Source: Thermofilum sp. NZ13 (GTDB lineage: Archaea > Thermoproteota > Thermoprotei > Thermofilales > Thermofilaceae). Taken from it: a stretch of DNA of 64,000 bases. Shown piece by piece: positions 51,528 through 58,209 of the stretch (its first letter is position 1; each line of letters starts with the position of its first letter). The stretch is from NCBI GenBank assembly GCA_002855745.1, contig NDWX01000002.1, positions 1 to 64,000 on the forward strand, written 5' to 3'. The notes under the pieces are model-generated. The model ran no database searches. It was not told where the DNA came from and saw nothing but the letters and a program-made list of their open reading frames with translations. The position numbers were made by a program, and so were the translations under genes.

Positions 51528-51644
51528 AGTTACTCCCCTAACTAATAACCATTTCCCCTAGCGGAATCTGCAGCTGTGCAAGGAGAATTATTTGTGCTTT
51601 TTGTAGAAAGGTATTTATGGCGAAAACCTTTCCTGGGTATCCTG

Positions 51645-51920
51645 ATGGTTCGCGAGGCAAAGCTAAAGGTCGTCAACAAGAGCGGTCTTCACGCTAGGCC
51701 GGCGGCCGTGTTTGTCCAGACCGCCAAGAGCTTCTCCTCGAAAATCGTTGTGAGGAAGGGGGGCAGGTCTGCCGACTCGAAGAACATCCTCCAGCTCCTC
51801 TCCCTCGGGGTGGACATGGGGGACGAGATCGAGATCGTCGCTGACGGCCCCGACGAGGATAAAGCGATCGAGCAACTTACCAAGCTACTGCTGGAGGTCC
51901 TGCCCGAGCAGGACAAGTAG
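51645..51920 (+). CDS. ptsH: Phosphocarrier protein HPr
   Basis: A 91-residue protein from ATG 51645. KLKVVNKSGLHARPAAVFVQ contains the phosphorylated His16 with Arg18, as in all HPr. RKGGRSADSKNILQLLSLGV covers the regulatory-site loop; the Ser-Ile-Met of Gram-positive HPr is replaced here. It receives phosphate from enzyme I and passes it to EIIA. The frame is open from 51576 but the domain begins at 51645. A TATA-like gtatttatgg lies at 51611. It converges with ptsI, stops one base apart. Confidence 0.9.
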   Translation: MVREAKLKVVNKSGLHARPAAVFVQTAKSFSSKIVVRKGGRSADSKNILQLLSLGVDMGDEIEIVADGPDEDKAIEQLTKLLLEVLPEQDK

Positions 51921-51921
51921 G

Positions 51922-53637
51922 CTACTCGTAGAACGTTACCCCGCTTTTCTCGAGGATCTTCCTGGACCACTCTCTGACCTCGCTGGCCCTCTCCGCTGCC
52001 TCCAGGAGCTCTGCCAGGCTTTCCTCGAGCTTTTCCAGCCTAAGCCTCCTCACAACGTACTTCACCTTCCCCACGAACTGTGGGGCGACGCTGAGGCTCT
52101 CCACGCCCAAGCCTAGGAGCACGGGCACGGCCAGCGGCCTAGAAGCCATCTCCCCGCAGACCTCCACCTCTGCCTTGCCCTTCACCTGCTTGACAGCCTG
52201 TGCTATCAGCCGCAGTGCAGCCGGGTTGAGCTCGTCGTAGAGGTACGCTACGAGGCTGTTGCCCCTGTCCGCGGCCATCACGTACTGAGTTAGGTCGTTT
52301 GTGCCGAAGCTTATGAAGCTCAAACCCCCTCTCGCAACCAGGCTCCCAGCGAGGAGCGCGCTCGACGGGGTCTCAACCATCACTCCCAGCTCGAGCACCC
52401 CTGTCTTCGCGCCGGAAGCCTCGAGCCTCTCCCTCTCCTCCTCGACGATCTTTCTGAACTCCTCAACCTCCTCCACTGCGCTGACCATTGGCAGCATGAG
52501 CCTGAGCCTGCCGTGGGCGGAGGCTCTGAGCAAGGCCCTAACCAGGGGCACGAGGAGCTCATCCCTGTACTTGAACAGCAGCCTCGTACCCCTCAAGCCG
52601 AGCTGGGGGTTCTGCTCCCGCGGGAGCTCCAGGAACGGGACGGGCTTGTCTCCCCCGATGTCCGGCGCCCTCACGGTGAGCGGCTTCCCGCCCACGAGCT
52701 GGACCGACCTGGAGAACAGCTGGTAGAGCTCGTCCTCGCTGGGCGGGGACGTGCGGGCCATGTACGCGAACTCCACCCTGAACAGCCCCACGCCTCCGCA
52801 GCCGTACTGGTCGAGTATCCGCAGTTCCTCGAAGTTTCCGACGTTGCAGTAGACTTTAACCCTGCGGCCGTCAAGGGTCAGAGCCTCGAGCCCCGCCTCG
52901 CTGGCGAAAACCTCGAGGAGCTGGCTGTACTGCCTTGCCAGCCTCTCGTACCTCTCCAGCTCCCCGCTCGAAGGGTTCAGGATCAGGTAGCCTTCAAGCG
53001 CGTCCACCACTGCCTGGGAGCCCTCGCTGACGGCCTCCAGGTTCAGAGCGCTGGCTATGAGGTACGGTATGCCCTTGAGCCGGGCCAGGATAGCCACGTG
53101 CGACGTAACACCCCCGCTCCTGGTCACAAGCCCTTTAAGCCCTTGGCTAGTCATCTCGAGGAACTCTATCGGGTCCACCTCCTCACCCACAGCCACCTCC
53201 CAGCCCCCTGCAGCCCGCCCACCTTCAAGGCCCTGGAGCAGGGTCACGAGCCTTGAGGCAAGGTCCCGGAGGTCCTGGGCCCTAAGCGCGAAGAGCTCGC
53301 TACCCTGTTTGAGCATCTCGCTGTACTTCTCGTAAACCCTTCTCACGGCGTAGACCGCCGAGTACCCCTGCGAGACCAGCTCCAGCGCCTCGGACACCAG
53401 GGACTCGAGGATCAGTAGCTGCGCCTCCACGACCTCCTGCTCCTGCCTAGGCAGTAGCCCCTTCAGCGTGCTAAGCTTCCCAGCCAGGACCTCCCCAGCC
53501 CTCCTCAGCTTCTCTGCCTCAGCCCCCGCGTCAGATGCCTTGGCCTCAATGGGAACGCTCAGAAAGTCAGTCTTCCTCAGCACGCTCACCTTGCCTATGG
53601 CTATCCCAGGCGAGGCCACTAACCCTTTTAGGCGCAT
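51922..53637 (-). CDS. ptsI: Phosphoenolpyruvate-protein phosphotransferase (PTS enzyme I)
   Basis: A 571-residue protein from ATG 53637. VASPGIAIGKVSVL starts the HPr-binding N-domain. SGGVTSHVAILARLKGIPYL has the phosphorylated His180. The C-domain has GLFRVEFAYMARTSPPSEDE, PDIGGDKPVPFLELPREQNP, LGVMVETPSSALLAG, FISFGTNDLTQYVMAADRGN and VEVCGEMASRP, with the PEP-binding Arg, the Mg-binding residues and the acid Cys. The length is as in bacterial enzyme I (about 575). Archaeal PTS proteins are uncommon and are generally attributed to transfer from bacteria; here the gene is GC-rich like the host. Confidence 0.92.
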   Translation of the reverse strand: MRLKGLVASPGIAIGKVSVLRKTDFLSVPIEAKASDAGAEAEKLRRAGEVLAGKLSTLKGLLPRQEQEVVEAQLLILESLVSEALELVSQGYSAVYAVRRVYEKYSEMLKQGSELFALRAQDLRDLASRLVTLLQGLEGGRAAGGWEVAVGEEVDPIEFLEMTSQGLKGLVTRSGGVTSHVAILARLKGIPYLIASALNLEAVSEGSQAVVDALEGYLILNPSSGELERYERLARQYSQLLEVFASEAGLEALTLDGRRVKVYCNVGNFEELRILDQYGCGGVGLFRVEFAYMARTSPPSEDELYQLFSRSVQLVGGKPLTVRAPDIGGDKPVPFLELPREQNPQLGLRGTRLLFKYRDELLVPLVRALLRASAHGRLRLMLPMVSAVEEVEEFRKIVEEERERLEASGAKTGVLELGVMVETPSSALLAGSLVARGGLSFISFGTNDLTQYVMAADRGNSLVAYLYDELNPAALRLIAQAVKQVKGKAEVEVCGEMASRPLAVPVLLGLGVESLSVAPQFVGKVKYVVRRLRLEKLEESLAELLEAAERASEVREWSRKILEKSGVTFYE

Positions 53638-54116: not shown

Positions 54117-55268
54117 ATGAGGGTTATAGTTAAGGGAGGCAGAGTCCTAACCCCATTTCTGGACCTCGGGGAGATGGACGTGGCTATCGAGTCCGGAGTC
54201 ATTGTTGAGGTCGGCGAGAACCTGTCGGGGGACAAGACCATAGACGCCTCCGGCCTAACCGTCGCGCCGGGCTTCATAGACACGCACTTCCACGGCTACG
54301 GCGGCGTGGACTTCACCCTCGCCAGCTCCGAGGACGTTCTCCGGGTCGCCAAGCACGTGGCGAGGCACGGGGTCACGTGCTTCCTAGCATCCCTCGTTGC
54401 GGCCCCCCACGACGTGCTCCTCAAAGCCTCGTCCGAGGTGGCGAAGGCCATTGAGAGCCAGAAGCCCGGCTCAGGCTCCAGGGTGCTCGGGCTACACCTC
54501 GAGGGACCCTACCTCAACCCCAATATGAGGGGCGCCATGGACCCGCGCTTCTTCCGGCAGCCATCCATCGAGGAGTTCACGGAGTACTACAGCGCCTCCA
54601 GGGGGCACCTCAAGCAGATCACGGTGGCGCCCGAGCTGCCCGGAGCCACAGAGCTCGTAAGGCGCGCCGCCGGGATGGGCGTCACCGTGAGCCTCGGCCA
54701 CACGGACGCCACCTACGATCAGGCTGTGAAAGCGGTGCTGGCCGGCGCGTCGAAGGCTAACCACATCTTCAACCAGATGCGGCACTTCCATCACCGCGAG
54801 CCGGGAGTAGCCTTCGCCCTGCTCGAGCAGCCGAACGTGTTCATCGAGATGATCTCCGACCTTATACACCTCCACCCCTCGACCGTCAGGCTCGTCGCTA
54901 GGCTCGCAGGCCCCTCCAGAACGGTCCTCATCACCGACGCTGTTGCCGCTACAGGCCTGCCGGACGGCGAGTACACCTTAGGGGGGCTGAAGATAGTGGT
55001 CAAGGGCGGCGTCTCGAGGCTCGCCGACACGGGGGCGCTCGCGGGGAGCACGCTCACGATGGACAGGGCTGTCAAAAACATGGTCAGGCTCGGCTTCAGC
55101 CTCGCCGACGCCGTGAGAATGGCCTCAACAACGCCAGCGGCGAGCATAGGGCTAGGTGGGAAGCTCGGCGTCGTGGCGCCCGGCTACCCCGGGGACCTCG
55201 TGCTTCTCGACGATGAGCTCCGCGTAGTCAAGACCATCGTTGGGGGAGTGGAGGTATACGGTGGCTGA
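54117..55268 (+). CDS. nagA: N-acetylglucosamine-6-phosphate deacetylase
   Basis: A 383-residue amidohydrolase from ATG 54117 that makes GlcN-6-P plus acetate. TVAPGFIDTHFHGYGGVDFT has the H57-x-H59 motif. GLHLEGPYLNPNMRGAMDPR has the metal-binding Glu, VTVSLGHTDATYDQAV the His, NHIFNQMRHFHHREPG the substrate loop, and RTVLITDAVAATGLPDGEY the catalytic Asp. It is followed 3 bp later by the GlmS-like gene, so the two are one operon. Confidence 0.9.
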   Translation: MRVIVKGGRVLTPFLDLGEMDVAIESGVIVEVGENLSGDKTIDASGLTVAPGFIDTHFHGYGGVDFTLASSEDVLRVAKHVARHGVTCFLASLVAAPHDVLLKASSEVAKAIESQKPGSGSRVLGLHLEGPYLNPNMRGAMDPRFFRQPSIEEFTEYYSASRGHLKQITVAPELPGATELVRRAAGMGVTVSLGHTDATYDQAVKAVLAGASKANHIFNQMRHFHHREPGVAFALLEQPNVFIEMISDLIHLHPSTVRLVARLAGPSRTVLITDAVAATGLPDGEYTLGGLKIVVKGGVSRLADTGALAGSTLTMDRAVKNMVRLGFSLADAVRMASTTPAASIGLGGKLGVVAPGYPGDLVLLDDELRVVKTIVGGVEVYGG

Positions 55269-55271
55269 CGA

Positions 55272-57101
55272 ATGGGCGGCATCCTCGGGGCTGTAGCGAG
55301 GGGCAGAGCCAACGTAGTGCCCAGCGTAGTGGAGGGCCTGAAGAGGATGCGCTTCAAGGGGTATGACAGCGCTGGAGTCGCGGTGGTCGAGGAGGGCGTG
55401 CTGAGCGTTTACAAGGACGTGGGCTGGGTGGACTACGTGGCCGAGAAGCTGGGCCTGCTCAAGCTGTCCAGCAGCGTCGCGCTCGGTCAGACGCGCTACG
55501 CCACGCACGGCAGGCCGACAACGGAGAACGCGCACCCCTTCGCGGACTGCAGGCAGAGAGTCGCGGTGGCCGGCGACGGGGCGATCAGCAACTACGAGAA
55601 GCTCAAGGACATGGTTGTCATGAGCGGCCACAAGCTGCAGTCGAGGAGCGACTTCGAGGTGCCTGCCCACGTGCTGGAGGAGGAGCTTGAGAGGGACAGG
55701 GGCTTCGTGGAGGCGCTCCAAGCGCTCCAGGGCATCCTTGAGGGCTTCTACGCGATCGCGGTCCTAGACAGGGACTCTGAGTGCATCGGAGCCTTCGCAA
55801 GCTCGCTGCCCCTCTACGTAGGCATATCGGGCGAAGCCTTCTACGTCACCAACACCCTGACAGCCCTGCACGGCCTTGCGGACAGCTACATCCAGGTTGA
55901 GCCCAGCGAGCTCGTGCTCGTCTGTAGGGGTGGGGTTAAGGTGTACCGGCAAGGGGCTGAAGCCCAGCTGAAGCCCCCGAGCAGGTTGGAGGTCGACCCA
56001 GCACTGGTGGACAAGGGGGGCTTCAGGCACCATATGCTCCGCGAGATCTACGAGGTCCCATACGCGCTTCTCAGGACGCTGAGCACGGTCCAGGAGAAGT
56101 ACCTCCAGCTCGCCGCCCGCCTTGTCCTCGGCGCTGAAAGCGTCTACATCATAGCAAACGGGACCAGCCTGCACGCAGGGATGGTGGCGTCATACTACCT
56201 CTCGGAGCTGGTCGGCGTGAGCCCCGTTGTGACCAGTGCCGCCGAGTTCCCGCTCTACTACGTCGAGAATATTGGGCCGGGCAGCCTGGTCGTAGCGATA
56301 TCGCAGTCAGGCGAGACGGGCGACGTGCTCTCCTCCCTTTACGAGGCGAAGCTCAGGGGCTCCACCATCCTCGGCGTCACCAACTACATAGGCTCGAGGC
56401 TCGCAAGGCTGTCGAATGTCTACCTGCCTATAGCCGCGGGCCCCGAGCTCGCCGTCCCCGCCACCAAGACCTTCACCTCGACCCTCCTCCTGCTCTACCT
56501 GATCTCGCTCAGGGCGTCCAGGGAGTCCGGGAGGACGGACGCCGGCACGCACGCGCAGAAAGTCTCCTCCGTCAAGGCGGCTGCAACCGCCCTCGCGGAG
56601 TACCTCCCCAGGATAGACGAGGAGACGAAGCAGGCCGTCAGGCTCTTGAAGGGCTGCAGGGGAGGCTACGTGGTTTCCAGGGGGATCACGTACCCACTGG
56701 CACTCGAGGCTGCCCTGAAGCTCAAGGAAGCCTCCTACTTCCACGCCGAGGGTGTTGAAGCCGGAGAGTTCAAGCACGGCCCCTTCGTGCTCGTCGAGGA
56801 CGGCTTCTTCACGGGCTTCATAATGCCTGTCGAGAGGCTCTCCGCCGAGGCCACCTACCCGCTGATACAGTCAGCCATCGAAGCGGGGGCGTCCACCGTG
56901 GTCGTCGGGTTCGAGGGCGATGGGAGGCTGGCGCAACTCAGCGGTGAGAAGCTGGCCGTCATCCACGCTCCCCCAGCCGAGAGGCACCTCGCGCCAATAA
57001 TCTACGCGGTTCCGCTCCAGCTGCTTGCGTACAGGCTTGGGGTAGAGCTCGGGAGACCCATCGACGCGCCCCGCTACCTGACTAAAGCGGTGACGAGGTA
57101 G
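55272..57101 (+). CDS. GlmS-like protein with a dead glutaminase domain; possible GlcN-6-P deaminase
   Basis: A 609-residue protein, the normal GlmS length. It starts MGGILGAVARGRANVVPSVV where GlmS has MCGI: the nucleophilic Cys is Gly. Also changed is GDGAISNYEKLK (HNGIIEN in GlmS). The SIS domains are intact: IANGTSLHAGMVASYYLSEL, VVAISQSGETGDVLSSLYEA, AVPATKTFTSTL, and the end PRYLTKAVTR (normally PRNLAKSVTVE). Without the Cys it cannot take ammonia from glutamine. With NagA upstream, deamination of GlcN-6-P to fructose-6-P, or synthesis from free ammonia, is likely. The reaction direction is inferred. ATG 55272. Confidence 0.85.
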   Translation: MGGILGAVARGRANVVPSVVEGLKRMRFKGYDSAGVAVVEEGVLSVYKDVGWVDYVAEKLGLLKLSSSVALGQTRYATHGRPTTENAHPFADCRQRVAVAGDGAISNYEKLKDMVVMSGHKLQSRSDFEVPAHVLEEELERDRGFVEALQALQGILEGFYAIAVLDRDSECIGAFASSLPLYVGISGEAFYVTNTLTALHGLADSYIQVEPSELVLVCRGGVKVYRQGAEAQLKPPSRLEVDPALVDKGGFRHHMLREIYEVPYALLRTLSTVQEKYLQLAARLVLGAESVYIIANGTSLHAGMVASYYLSELVGVSPVVTSAAEFPLYYVENIGPGSLVVAISQSGETGDVLSSLYEAKLRGSTILGVTNYIGSRLARLSNVYLPIAAGPELAVPATKTFTSTLLLLYLISLRASRESGRTDAGTHAQKVSSVKAAATALAEYLPRIDEETKQAVRLLKGCRGGYVVSRGITYPLALEAALKLKEASYFHAEGVEAGEFKHGPFVLVEDGFFTGFIMPVERLSAEATYPLIQSAIEAGASTVVVGFEGDGRLAQLSGEKLAVIHAPPAERHLAPIIYAVPLQLLAYRLGVELGRPIDAPRYLTKAVTR

Positions 57102-57138
57102 CGGTGGCCCTCAGGGCGTAAAGGCTTTCATCGACTCG

Positions 57139-58209
57139 TTGCAGGTCGTCCAGATAGGCCCCTTGACTGTGAGGGTCTGGGACGCGATGGGGGTTGCTGG
57201 AGCAGTGCTACTAGCTCTCGGCGCCGCGATCATGATGAAGATGATGCTTTCAAGGAAGACTGTTGCATTCTACATCCTTGGATTCGCCCTCGCCGCCTAT
57301 TTGAAGCTGAGCCTCCTGGCGATAGCGCTCATCGCCGGCTCCATAATATTCGCCCTCTACCTGTTCACGCACAGAGAAGTGCTCGAGGGGATGACCTCGA
57401 CATCCACCGCGCCACCCACAGGCAAGGCAACGGCTAAGGACTTCCTCCGCTGGTTCGGAGTCTCGTGGTTTATCCAGTCCCCCTGGAACTACGCGAGAAT
57501 GATGGGCACGGGCTTTGCTCACGGAATGCTGGAGGTGGAGAAGAGGCTTCGCAAGGATCCCGAGGAGCTGAAATCTTGGATGCGCCTACACAACGAGTTC
57601 TACAACACCGAGCCGCACCTCCACAACGCGATCTACGGAATGGTGATCTCGCTGGAGGAGCAGGGCGCAGACCAGGACACGATACGCGGCATCAAGACAG
57701 CTCTCATGGGGCCGTTCGCCGGACTAGGCGACTCGATGATTTGGTTCATTCTGCTGCCCATAGCCTTCCTTCTCGGGGCGTCGCTGGGCGTGAACGGCAA
57801 CATCCTGGGGCCGATCGTCGCGCTGCTGATCTGGATACCTGTATCCTGGGCTGTGAAGTACTACACCCTCGTGTACGGCTACAAGTACGGTTTATCCTTG
57901 GCTGAGGTTCTGAAGGGCGACGTGCTGAAGGTCTTCAGAGAAGCTATCATGGGCTTCGCTATGGCCATAATCGGGGGCATTACAGCAACCTACGTGAGGG
58001 CTACAACACCAATAGTCCTAGCGTCATACCACGGGCAGGCCATAAAGCTCCAGCCTGTCCTAGACCAGCTGATGCCGTCCCTGCTACCGCTCCTCTTCAC
58101 ACTGTTCACGTACTGGCTCATCAAGAACAAAGGCTACAGCTACGGCAAAGCCGTGATAGTGCTGTTCCTAGTAGCCTTCATACTTGCGTTGCTGGGCATC
58201 CTCGGGTAG
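57139..58209 (+). CDS. Mannose-family PTS IID component with a IIC-like N-terminal segment
   Basis: A 356-residue protein from TTG 57139. Residues 100-356 form EIID: FLRWFGVSWFIQSPWNYARM, LRKDPEELKSWMRLHNEFYN, TALMGPFAGLGDSMIWFILL and four to five C-terminal helices. Residues 10-90 are three hydrophobic helices (AVLLALGAAIMMKM; FYILGFALAAYLKLSLLAIA) like the C-terminal end of a IIC subunit. A full IIC, IIA and IIB are not in this window. It could be a IIC-IID fusion after deletion of most of IIC. It follows nagA and the GlmS-like gene. Confidence 0.75.
   Translation: MQVVQIGPLTVRVWDAMGVAGAVLLALGAAIMMKMMLSRKTVAFYILGFALAAYLKLSLLAIALIAGSIIFALYLFTHREVLEGMTSTSTAPPTGKATAKDFLRWFGVSWFIQSPWNYARMMGTGFAHGMLEVEKRLRKDPEELKSWMRLHNEFYNTEPHLHNAIYGMVISLEEQGADQDTIRGIKTALMGPFAGLGDSMIWFILLPIAFLLGASLGVNGNILGPIVALLIWIPVSWAVKYYTLVYGYKYGLSLAEVLKGDVLKVFREAIMGFAMAIIGGITATYVRATTPIVLASYHGQAIKLQPVLDQLMPSLLPLLFTLFTYWLIKNKGYSYGKAVIVLFLVAFILALLGILG

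Follow-up and report, generated by a model that had tools for sequence, protein, structure and literature searches.

Three bases downstream of nagA, and on the same strand, lies a gene for a full-length homologue of the glucosamine-6-phosphate (GlcN-6-P) synthase GlmS, whose product lacks the N-terminal cysteine of GlmS. The gene is located in a stretch of 64,000 nucleotides from Thermofilum sp. NZ13, which was analysed as a whole and is referred to here as the window. This raises the question of what a building enzyme with a disabled glutaminase site does beside a gene of amino-sugar breakdown. The sequence-only reading had proposed a catabolic deaminase, and this interpretation was supported overall. 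We consider it likely that the protein (the variant, below) is a GlcN-6-P deaminase, with a substrate and a direction that we infer, and that it arose a single time, within Thermoproteota, from a full-length GlmS. The relevant features of the window are as follows.

51576..51920, plus strand: PTS HPr (profile/Pfam match)
51922..53637, minus strand: PTS enzyme I, EI (profile/Pfam match)
54117..55268, plus strand: nagA, GlcNAc-6-P deacetylase (TIGR00221, 307 bits against a cut-off of 226)
55272..57101, plus strand: GlmS-like protein of 609 amino acids with a disabled glutaminase site, proposed GlcN-6-P deaminase (ORF, profile match, alignment)
55272..55991, plus strand: N-terminal Ntn glutaminase-like domain of the variant (alignment, model, fold match to 1xff)
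56019..57098, plus strand: two-SIS isomerase part of the variant, catalytic residues intact (Pfam, alignment, fold match)
57108..57115, no strand: deletion junction, where about 4.78 kb of G023, a genome of the same species, are missing (genome comparison)
57139..58209, plus strand: remnant of a PTS IIC-IID fusion, consisting of the last two thirds of the fusion, with IID whole and IIC cut N-terminally (profile/Pfam match, comparison with G023)

The variant scores 470 bits with the NCBIfam GlmS profile TIGR01135 (cut-off 418.05), and Pfam recognizes both SIS and glutaminase domains. Its N-terminus reads MGGILG, and AGDGAISNY stands in place of the GlmS sequence VHNGIIENY; the replacements of MCGI by MGGI and of HNG by GDG noted earlier were thus borne out in the ORF. 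Compared with E. coli GlmS (mature numbering), Cys1 is replaced by Gly (codon 2 of the window gene), Trp74 by Tyr (codon 76) and Asn98 by Asp (codon 102), residues which we take to be the nucleophile, the channel gate and part of the oxyanion hole of GlmS, respectively. Other positions of the glutaminase domain are unchanged (R73, T76, H77, G99 and D123), and the equivalents of Arg73 and Asp123, which presumably hold the main-chain ends of glutamine in GlmS, are codons 75 and 127. The isomerase domains are intact, as had been suggested, with positions 301-303, 347-349, 352, 399, 402, 481, 485, 488, 504 and 603 identical to those of E. coli GlmS, including the catalytic residues Glu488, His504 and Lys603.

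Relatives of the variant were gathered from the order (27 genomes), from a sample of the phylum (398 genomes) and from fetched regions. Those read comprised one full-length member with its N-terminus in each of 48 genomes, and one fragment at a contig end, making 49 genomes, one of which (G005) lies outside the 398-genome sample. The copy in G104 is cut by a contig end and was left out of the Cys1 count, and G139 and G252, which hold only a Cys-containing GlmS (Cys-GlmS), were dropped from the variant counts. The 48 members whose N-terminus could be read come without exception from Thermoproteota. All of them have Gly1, and the start codon immediately precedes Gly-Gly in every one (28 ATG, 12 GTG and 8 TTG). 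Position 98 is Asp in 49 of 49 members, position 74 is Tyr, Phe or Ser in all 48 rows of the tree set, and the catalytic isomerase residues are conserved across the family. A read error or a one-off mutation in the window gene is excluded, since both changes recur in a second genome of this species (98% identity) and in 46 other relatives. The cysteine is therefore truly absent from position 2, and conserved as absent, and the window protein, correctly described as a Cys-less GlmS, is one member of a large Thermoproteota family and no single oddity.

The variant was detected in at least 50 of the 398 sampled Thermoproteota genomes, a lower bound because only the stronger hits of the later phylum search were read individually; the first phylum search (whole protein, E 1e-110) missed G331 and G376, which were found later. 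A scan of a wider contig collection with one short pattern, which differently patterned phyla could escape, yielded 92 matched stretches and 37 relatives, many of them already counted. Gly1 and Asp98 are both present in 36 of these relatives, which belong to Thermoproteota lineages according to their titles. The remaining one, a GlmS-like ORF running to the end of a contig in a Clostridia MAG (L172:5935-7449), has Gly for Cys1 and Ser for Trp74 with HNG (Asn98) kept, and represents either a second, independent loss of Cys or an error.

On the isomerase part, the variant forms one clade (SH-aLRT 99 among 91 rows), and a more careful tree of 69 thinned rows, from which the longest stand-alone SIS branches were left out, places the variant clade (97/90) apart from Cys-GlmS. 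Both trees were thinned of near-identical rows by hand, and the 91-row tree contains, among others, 39 of the 48 variant rows and nine of the 37 contig-scan rows. With a single clade, there is no need to assume that Cys was lost several times over in the family. The fixed differences between the variant and Cys-GlmS include G1/C1, Y74/W74, D98/N98, A398/G398, P400/A400, T408/Q408 and G588/A588, the last four being in the isomerase part. A decaying pseudogene is excluded for the clade by dN/dS and protein length, with one split member. In that member (G376, L167:2956-4772) the gene is split by one frameshift and lies 1.5 kb after nagA, and a GlmD-like stand-alone SIS gene is present on the same contig.

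The window genome (1.88 Mb, 33 contigs, 98.9% complete) also encodes a second full-length GlmS, located on contig 24, with MCGIVG, HNG and 37% identity to the variant. This is the Cys-containing copy that the sequence-only reading had suggested looking for elsewhere in the genome; it shows that the variant is not the sole GlmS and that a glutamine-dependent building enzyme is present. A second copy of the Cys-GlmS type occurs in 48 of the 49 variant genomes, as judged by reading in 30 of them and by score and identity in the other 18. The exception is G343 (Ignisphaera-type, 97% complete), which has the variant and gave no Cys-GlmS match, so that the variant could be biosynthetic there. Several genomes of the same order (L014-L025) have no full-length GlmS match and carry instead a stand-alone SIS protein with catalytic residues.

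The linkage of the variant gene to nagA is not restricted to the window. Among the 49 variant genomes first read, nagA exceeded the curated cut-off in 37. Its distance from the variant is no more than 500 bp in 16 of them, which come from five families and show three relative orientations. In the window's genus the two genes share a strand (six genomes); they are divergent in five genomes of family f32 and two of f25, and convergent in two genomes of f16 and one of f51. They lie apart in the other 21 genomes with both genes, at a distance of 9-10 kb in three of them. By contrast, Cys-GlmS was not within 12 kb of nagA in any of 49 places (48 genomes). Thus, the association first seen in the window recurs in other families and in other gene orders, and Cys-GlmS never shows it. 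In the 398-genome sample, nagA was present in 38 of the 50 genomes with the variant versus 23 of the 348 without it, corresponding to a Fisher odds ratio of 45, which ignores kinship, so that related genomes overstate its significance. No nagA match was found in 12 of the 49 variant genomes; these are mostly f16 genomes, in which the neighbouring genes that were fetched, including a tRNA synthetase gene, show no amino-sugar link. Throughout, neighbours were identified by scanning a selection of 40 proteins with Pfam.

The distribution of other deaminases was also analysed. Classical NagB is absent from all 51 variant genomes searched, including the window genome, and among nagA genomes it exceeded the cut-off in none of the 38 with the variant versus nine of the 23 without. 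In 26 of the 37 genomes with both nagA and the variant, the window genome among them, there was no match to NagB or to a stand-alone SIS protein. In the remaining 11, a stand-alone SIS protein accompanies the variant (a fragment in one case, AgaS-like in another), so that a further deaminase may be at work there. In G007, nagA is adjoined by a GlmD-like stand-alone SIS gene, and in G372 such a gene lies inside the nagA cluster; in G113, a Sulfolobales-type genome in which no variant was seen, the gene that overlaps nagA codes for a stand-alone SIS protein. That one slot is occupied either by the variant or by stand-alone proteins of the deaminase type is the strongest argument for a deaminase.

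In the proposed pathway, NagA would convert GlcNAc-6-P to GlcN-6-P, which the variant would hydrolyse according to GlcN-6-P + H2O → fructose-6-P + NH3. The SIS site would carry out ring opening, imine formation, isomerisation and ammonia release, the reverse of the synthase half-reaction; these steps are drawn from GlmS chemistry, and SIS chemistry is reversible. With C1G, N98D and W74Y/F/S, the N-terminal domain would be unable to feed glutamine nitrogen to the isomerase site and, lacking the nucleophile, the oxyanion Asn and the gate Trp, glutamine could not be burnt against the direction of breakdown. Counted against a deaminase are the variant genomes without nagA, those in which the two genes lie apart, the additional stand-alone SIS proteins, G343 and, in the window genome, the incomplete PTS linked to the gene. 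The NCBIfam profiles count against it as well: the variant passes the GlmS cut-off and stays below those of GlmD (NF041128, 71.3 against 580) and NagB-II (NF046059, 109.8 against 430). NagB (TIGR00502) was not among its profile matches.

Alternatively, the variant could be an ammonia-dependent GlcN-6-P synthase, in which the same site works towards synthesis and free NH3 takes the place of glutamine. This would agree with the reversibility of SIS chemistry, with the Cys-GlmS-free G343, with the 12 variant genomes that lack nagA and with the position of the variant in G335, where it is divergent from a gene for an Amt ammonium transporter (L066:3550-4758). Human CPS1, which works without glutamine and keeps a glutaminase domain that has lost its catalytic Cys, provides a precedent for such an ammonia user (PMC4655335). 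However, a second synthase is unneeded in the 48 of 49 genomes that have a copy of the Cys-GlmS type, and repeated adjacency to nagA belongs to breakdown, which makes ammonia-dependent synthesis an unlikely general function. The genomes without nagA, G343, the Amt neighbour and the extra SIS proteins fit such a synthase in some lineages; they also fit a supply of GlcN-6-P from sources other than GlcNAc-6-P, or two deaminases sharing the work.

If the variant is instead a breakdown enzyme for another sugar, it may be a galactosamine-6-P deaminase with an AgaS-like role, downstream of a GalNAc-type PTS and a GalNAc-6-P deacetylase. For the linked PTS components IIA, IIC and IID of its relatives, the top-scoring models are those for GalNAc/galactosamine or for the mannose family in general, with no score reaching its cut-off. 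Yet the variant is a GlmS by sequence, with no AgaS match at E 0.001, G023 has a separate cluster with an AgaS-family protein, an AgaZ/GatZ-like subunit and a second nagA, and most variant families have no PTS genes alongside; a galactosamine substrate therefore seems about as improbable as synthesis from ammonia. The co-occurrence of both proteins in 48 of the 49 genomes would also be expected if the variant were inactive itself and regulated Cys-GlmS by joining it in mixed oligomers. Such a role is highly improbable given that the isomerase residues are kept, that the isomerase part is the more constrained one in most pairs and that the variant gene sits with nagA, away from that of Cys-GlmS. 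Deamination of GlcN-6-P is thus the reading that we prefer.

The disabled glutaminase domain is under purifying selection. In seven variant pairs with finite dS, dN/dS was 0.07-0.15 in the glutaminase part and 0.03-0.11 in the isomerase part (dS was saturated in two of ten pairs), and in the closest pair, the window genome and G023, the isomerase part is the looser one. Mean identity among variants is 41% in the glutaminase part versus 53% in the isomerase part, whereas Cys-GlmS proteins of the same phylum have a mean identity of 55% in both. An AlphaFold2 model predicts the glutaminase domain to be folded with high confidence (mean pLDDT 93), and the modelled domain matches E. coli 1xff with Z 35.9 and an rmsd of 1.5 over 235 residues. 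None of the 16 stand-alone SIS proteins in the tree falls inside the variant clade, and every sampled member has kept the domain, which speaks against its being dispensable. The stand-alone SIS protein beside nagA in G113 is not a stripped variant either, as it is nearest to other stand-alone SIS proteins.

Because it is kept in every sampled member, the domain probably has a structural or regulatory part, either holding the dimer or the active site together or binding a signal in its remodelled pocket. Of these, a sensor is a tentative suggestion: a small molecule that signals amino nitrogen, be it glutamate, glutamine, ammonium or some other amino compound, might bind in the pocket and thereby switch the GlcN-6-P deaminase. 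This idea is based on the kept Arg73 and Asp123 together with the invariant N-terminal Gly and the invariant Asp98. If true, an Ntn-hydrolase fold would have been reused to control amino-sugar breakdown across Thermoproteota.

SIS-type GlcN-6-P deaminases (GlmD and NagB-II) and retained glutaminase domains without Cys (CPS1) are already known. The variant resembles GlmS/GFAT in its full length and two domains, and its model matches the E. coli and human enzymes over residues 2-607, but it lacks Cys1, Asn98 and Trp74, forms a separate clade and is linked to nagA. Thermococcus GlmD is reportedly an archaeal SIS-domain GlcN-6-P deaminase. GlmD from Thermococcus and Pyrococcus (PDB 2cb0, 2dec) shares with the variant the two-SIS part (Z 39.7, rmsd 2.3, 322 residues) and the proposed reaction, and NagB-II of the Shewanella SO3506 type (PDB 8eol, 8eym; Z 37.4 to the variant model) is likewise a SIS-type GlcN-6-P deaminase. 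Both lack a glutaminase domain, in contrast to the 609-residue variant with its folded N-terminal domain, in line with the suggestion that the dead domain is kept here, unlike in GlmD. The CPS1 glutaminase is of another fold class than that of GlmS. CPS1 resembles the variant in retaining a glutaminase domain without the catalytic Cys (PMC4655335), but catalyses a different reaction, in the direction of synthesis.

A search of the open-licence literature found no paper describing a full-length GlmS without its Cys, or a deaminase of this kind from Thermoproteota, which is no proof of absence; nor did it turn up a full-length GlmS that is encoded beside nagA and retains a uniformly disabled glutaminase domain. 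Databases still name the variant as the building enzyme GlmS. If the deaminase assignment is true, at least 50 of 398 Thermoproteota genomes carry a missing post-NagA breakdown step that passes as GlmS, and the metabolic maps of several hyperthermophilic archaeal orders would be corrected. The family would also present a natural case, with 48 aligned examples, of a bifunctional enzyme reversed by silencing one domain and yet keeping it.

The gene had also been described as lying beside PTS genes. HPr and EI are indeed there, but the PTS is incomplete and the third gene is only the IIC-IID remnant. The deletion spans the region from the end of the variant gene to the middle of IIC, with an 8-base overlap at the junction. 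Relative to G023, it removes PTS IIA and IIB, genes for a Gfo/Idh-type dehydrogenase and a ceramidase-like protein, and the first part of the IIC-IID fusion. It reflects either a strain difference or an assembly error. IIA and IIB were not found elsewhere in the window genome, although IIA is present in all five other searched genomes of the genus. With IIA, IIB and part of IIC lost from the linked PTS, uptake by this system should fail in the strain, or in the assembly. In sister genomes the variant cluster holds IIA, IIB and the IIC-IID fusion, and in other families the nagA link occurs without PTS genes alongside.

Only one nagA was seen in the window genome. The second cluster of G023 (L200:12748-18974) encodes an AgaS-family SIS protein, an AgaZ/GatZ-like aldolase subunit, a second NagA, a NagK-like kinase and a SIS_2 protein; it probably represents a distinct route for GalNAc. 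A SIS_2 protein of about 247 amino acids (NF002805; L154:5649-6392 and L056:11238-11975) recurs by nagA or PTS genes in several families.
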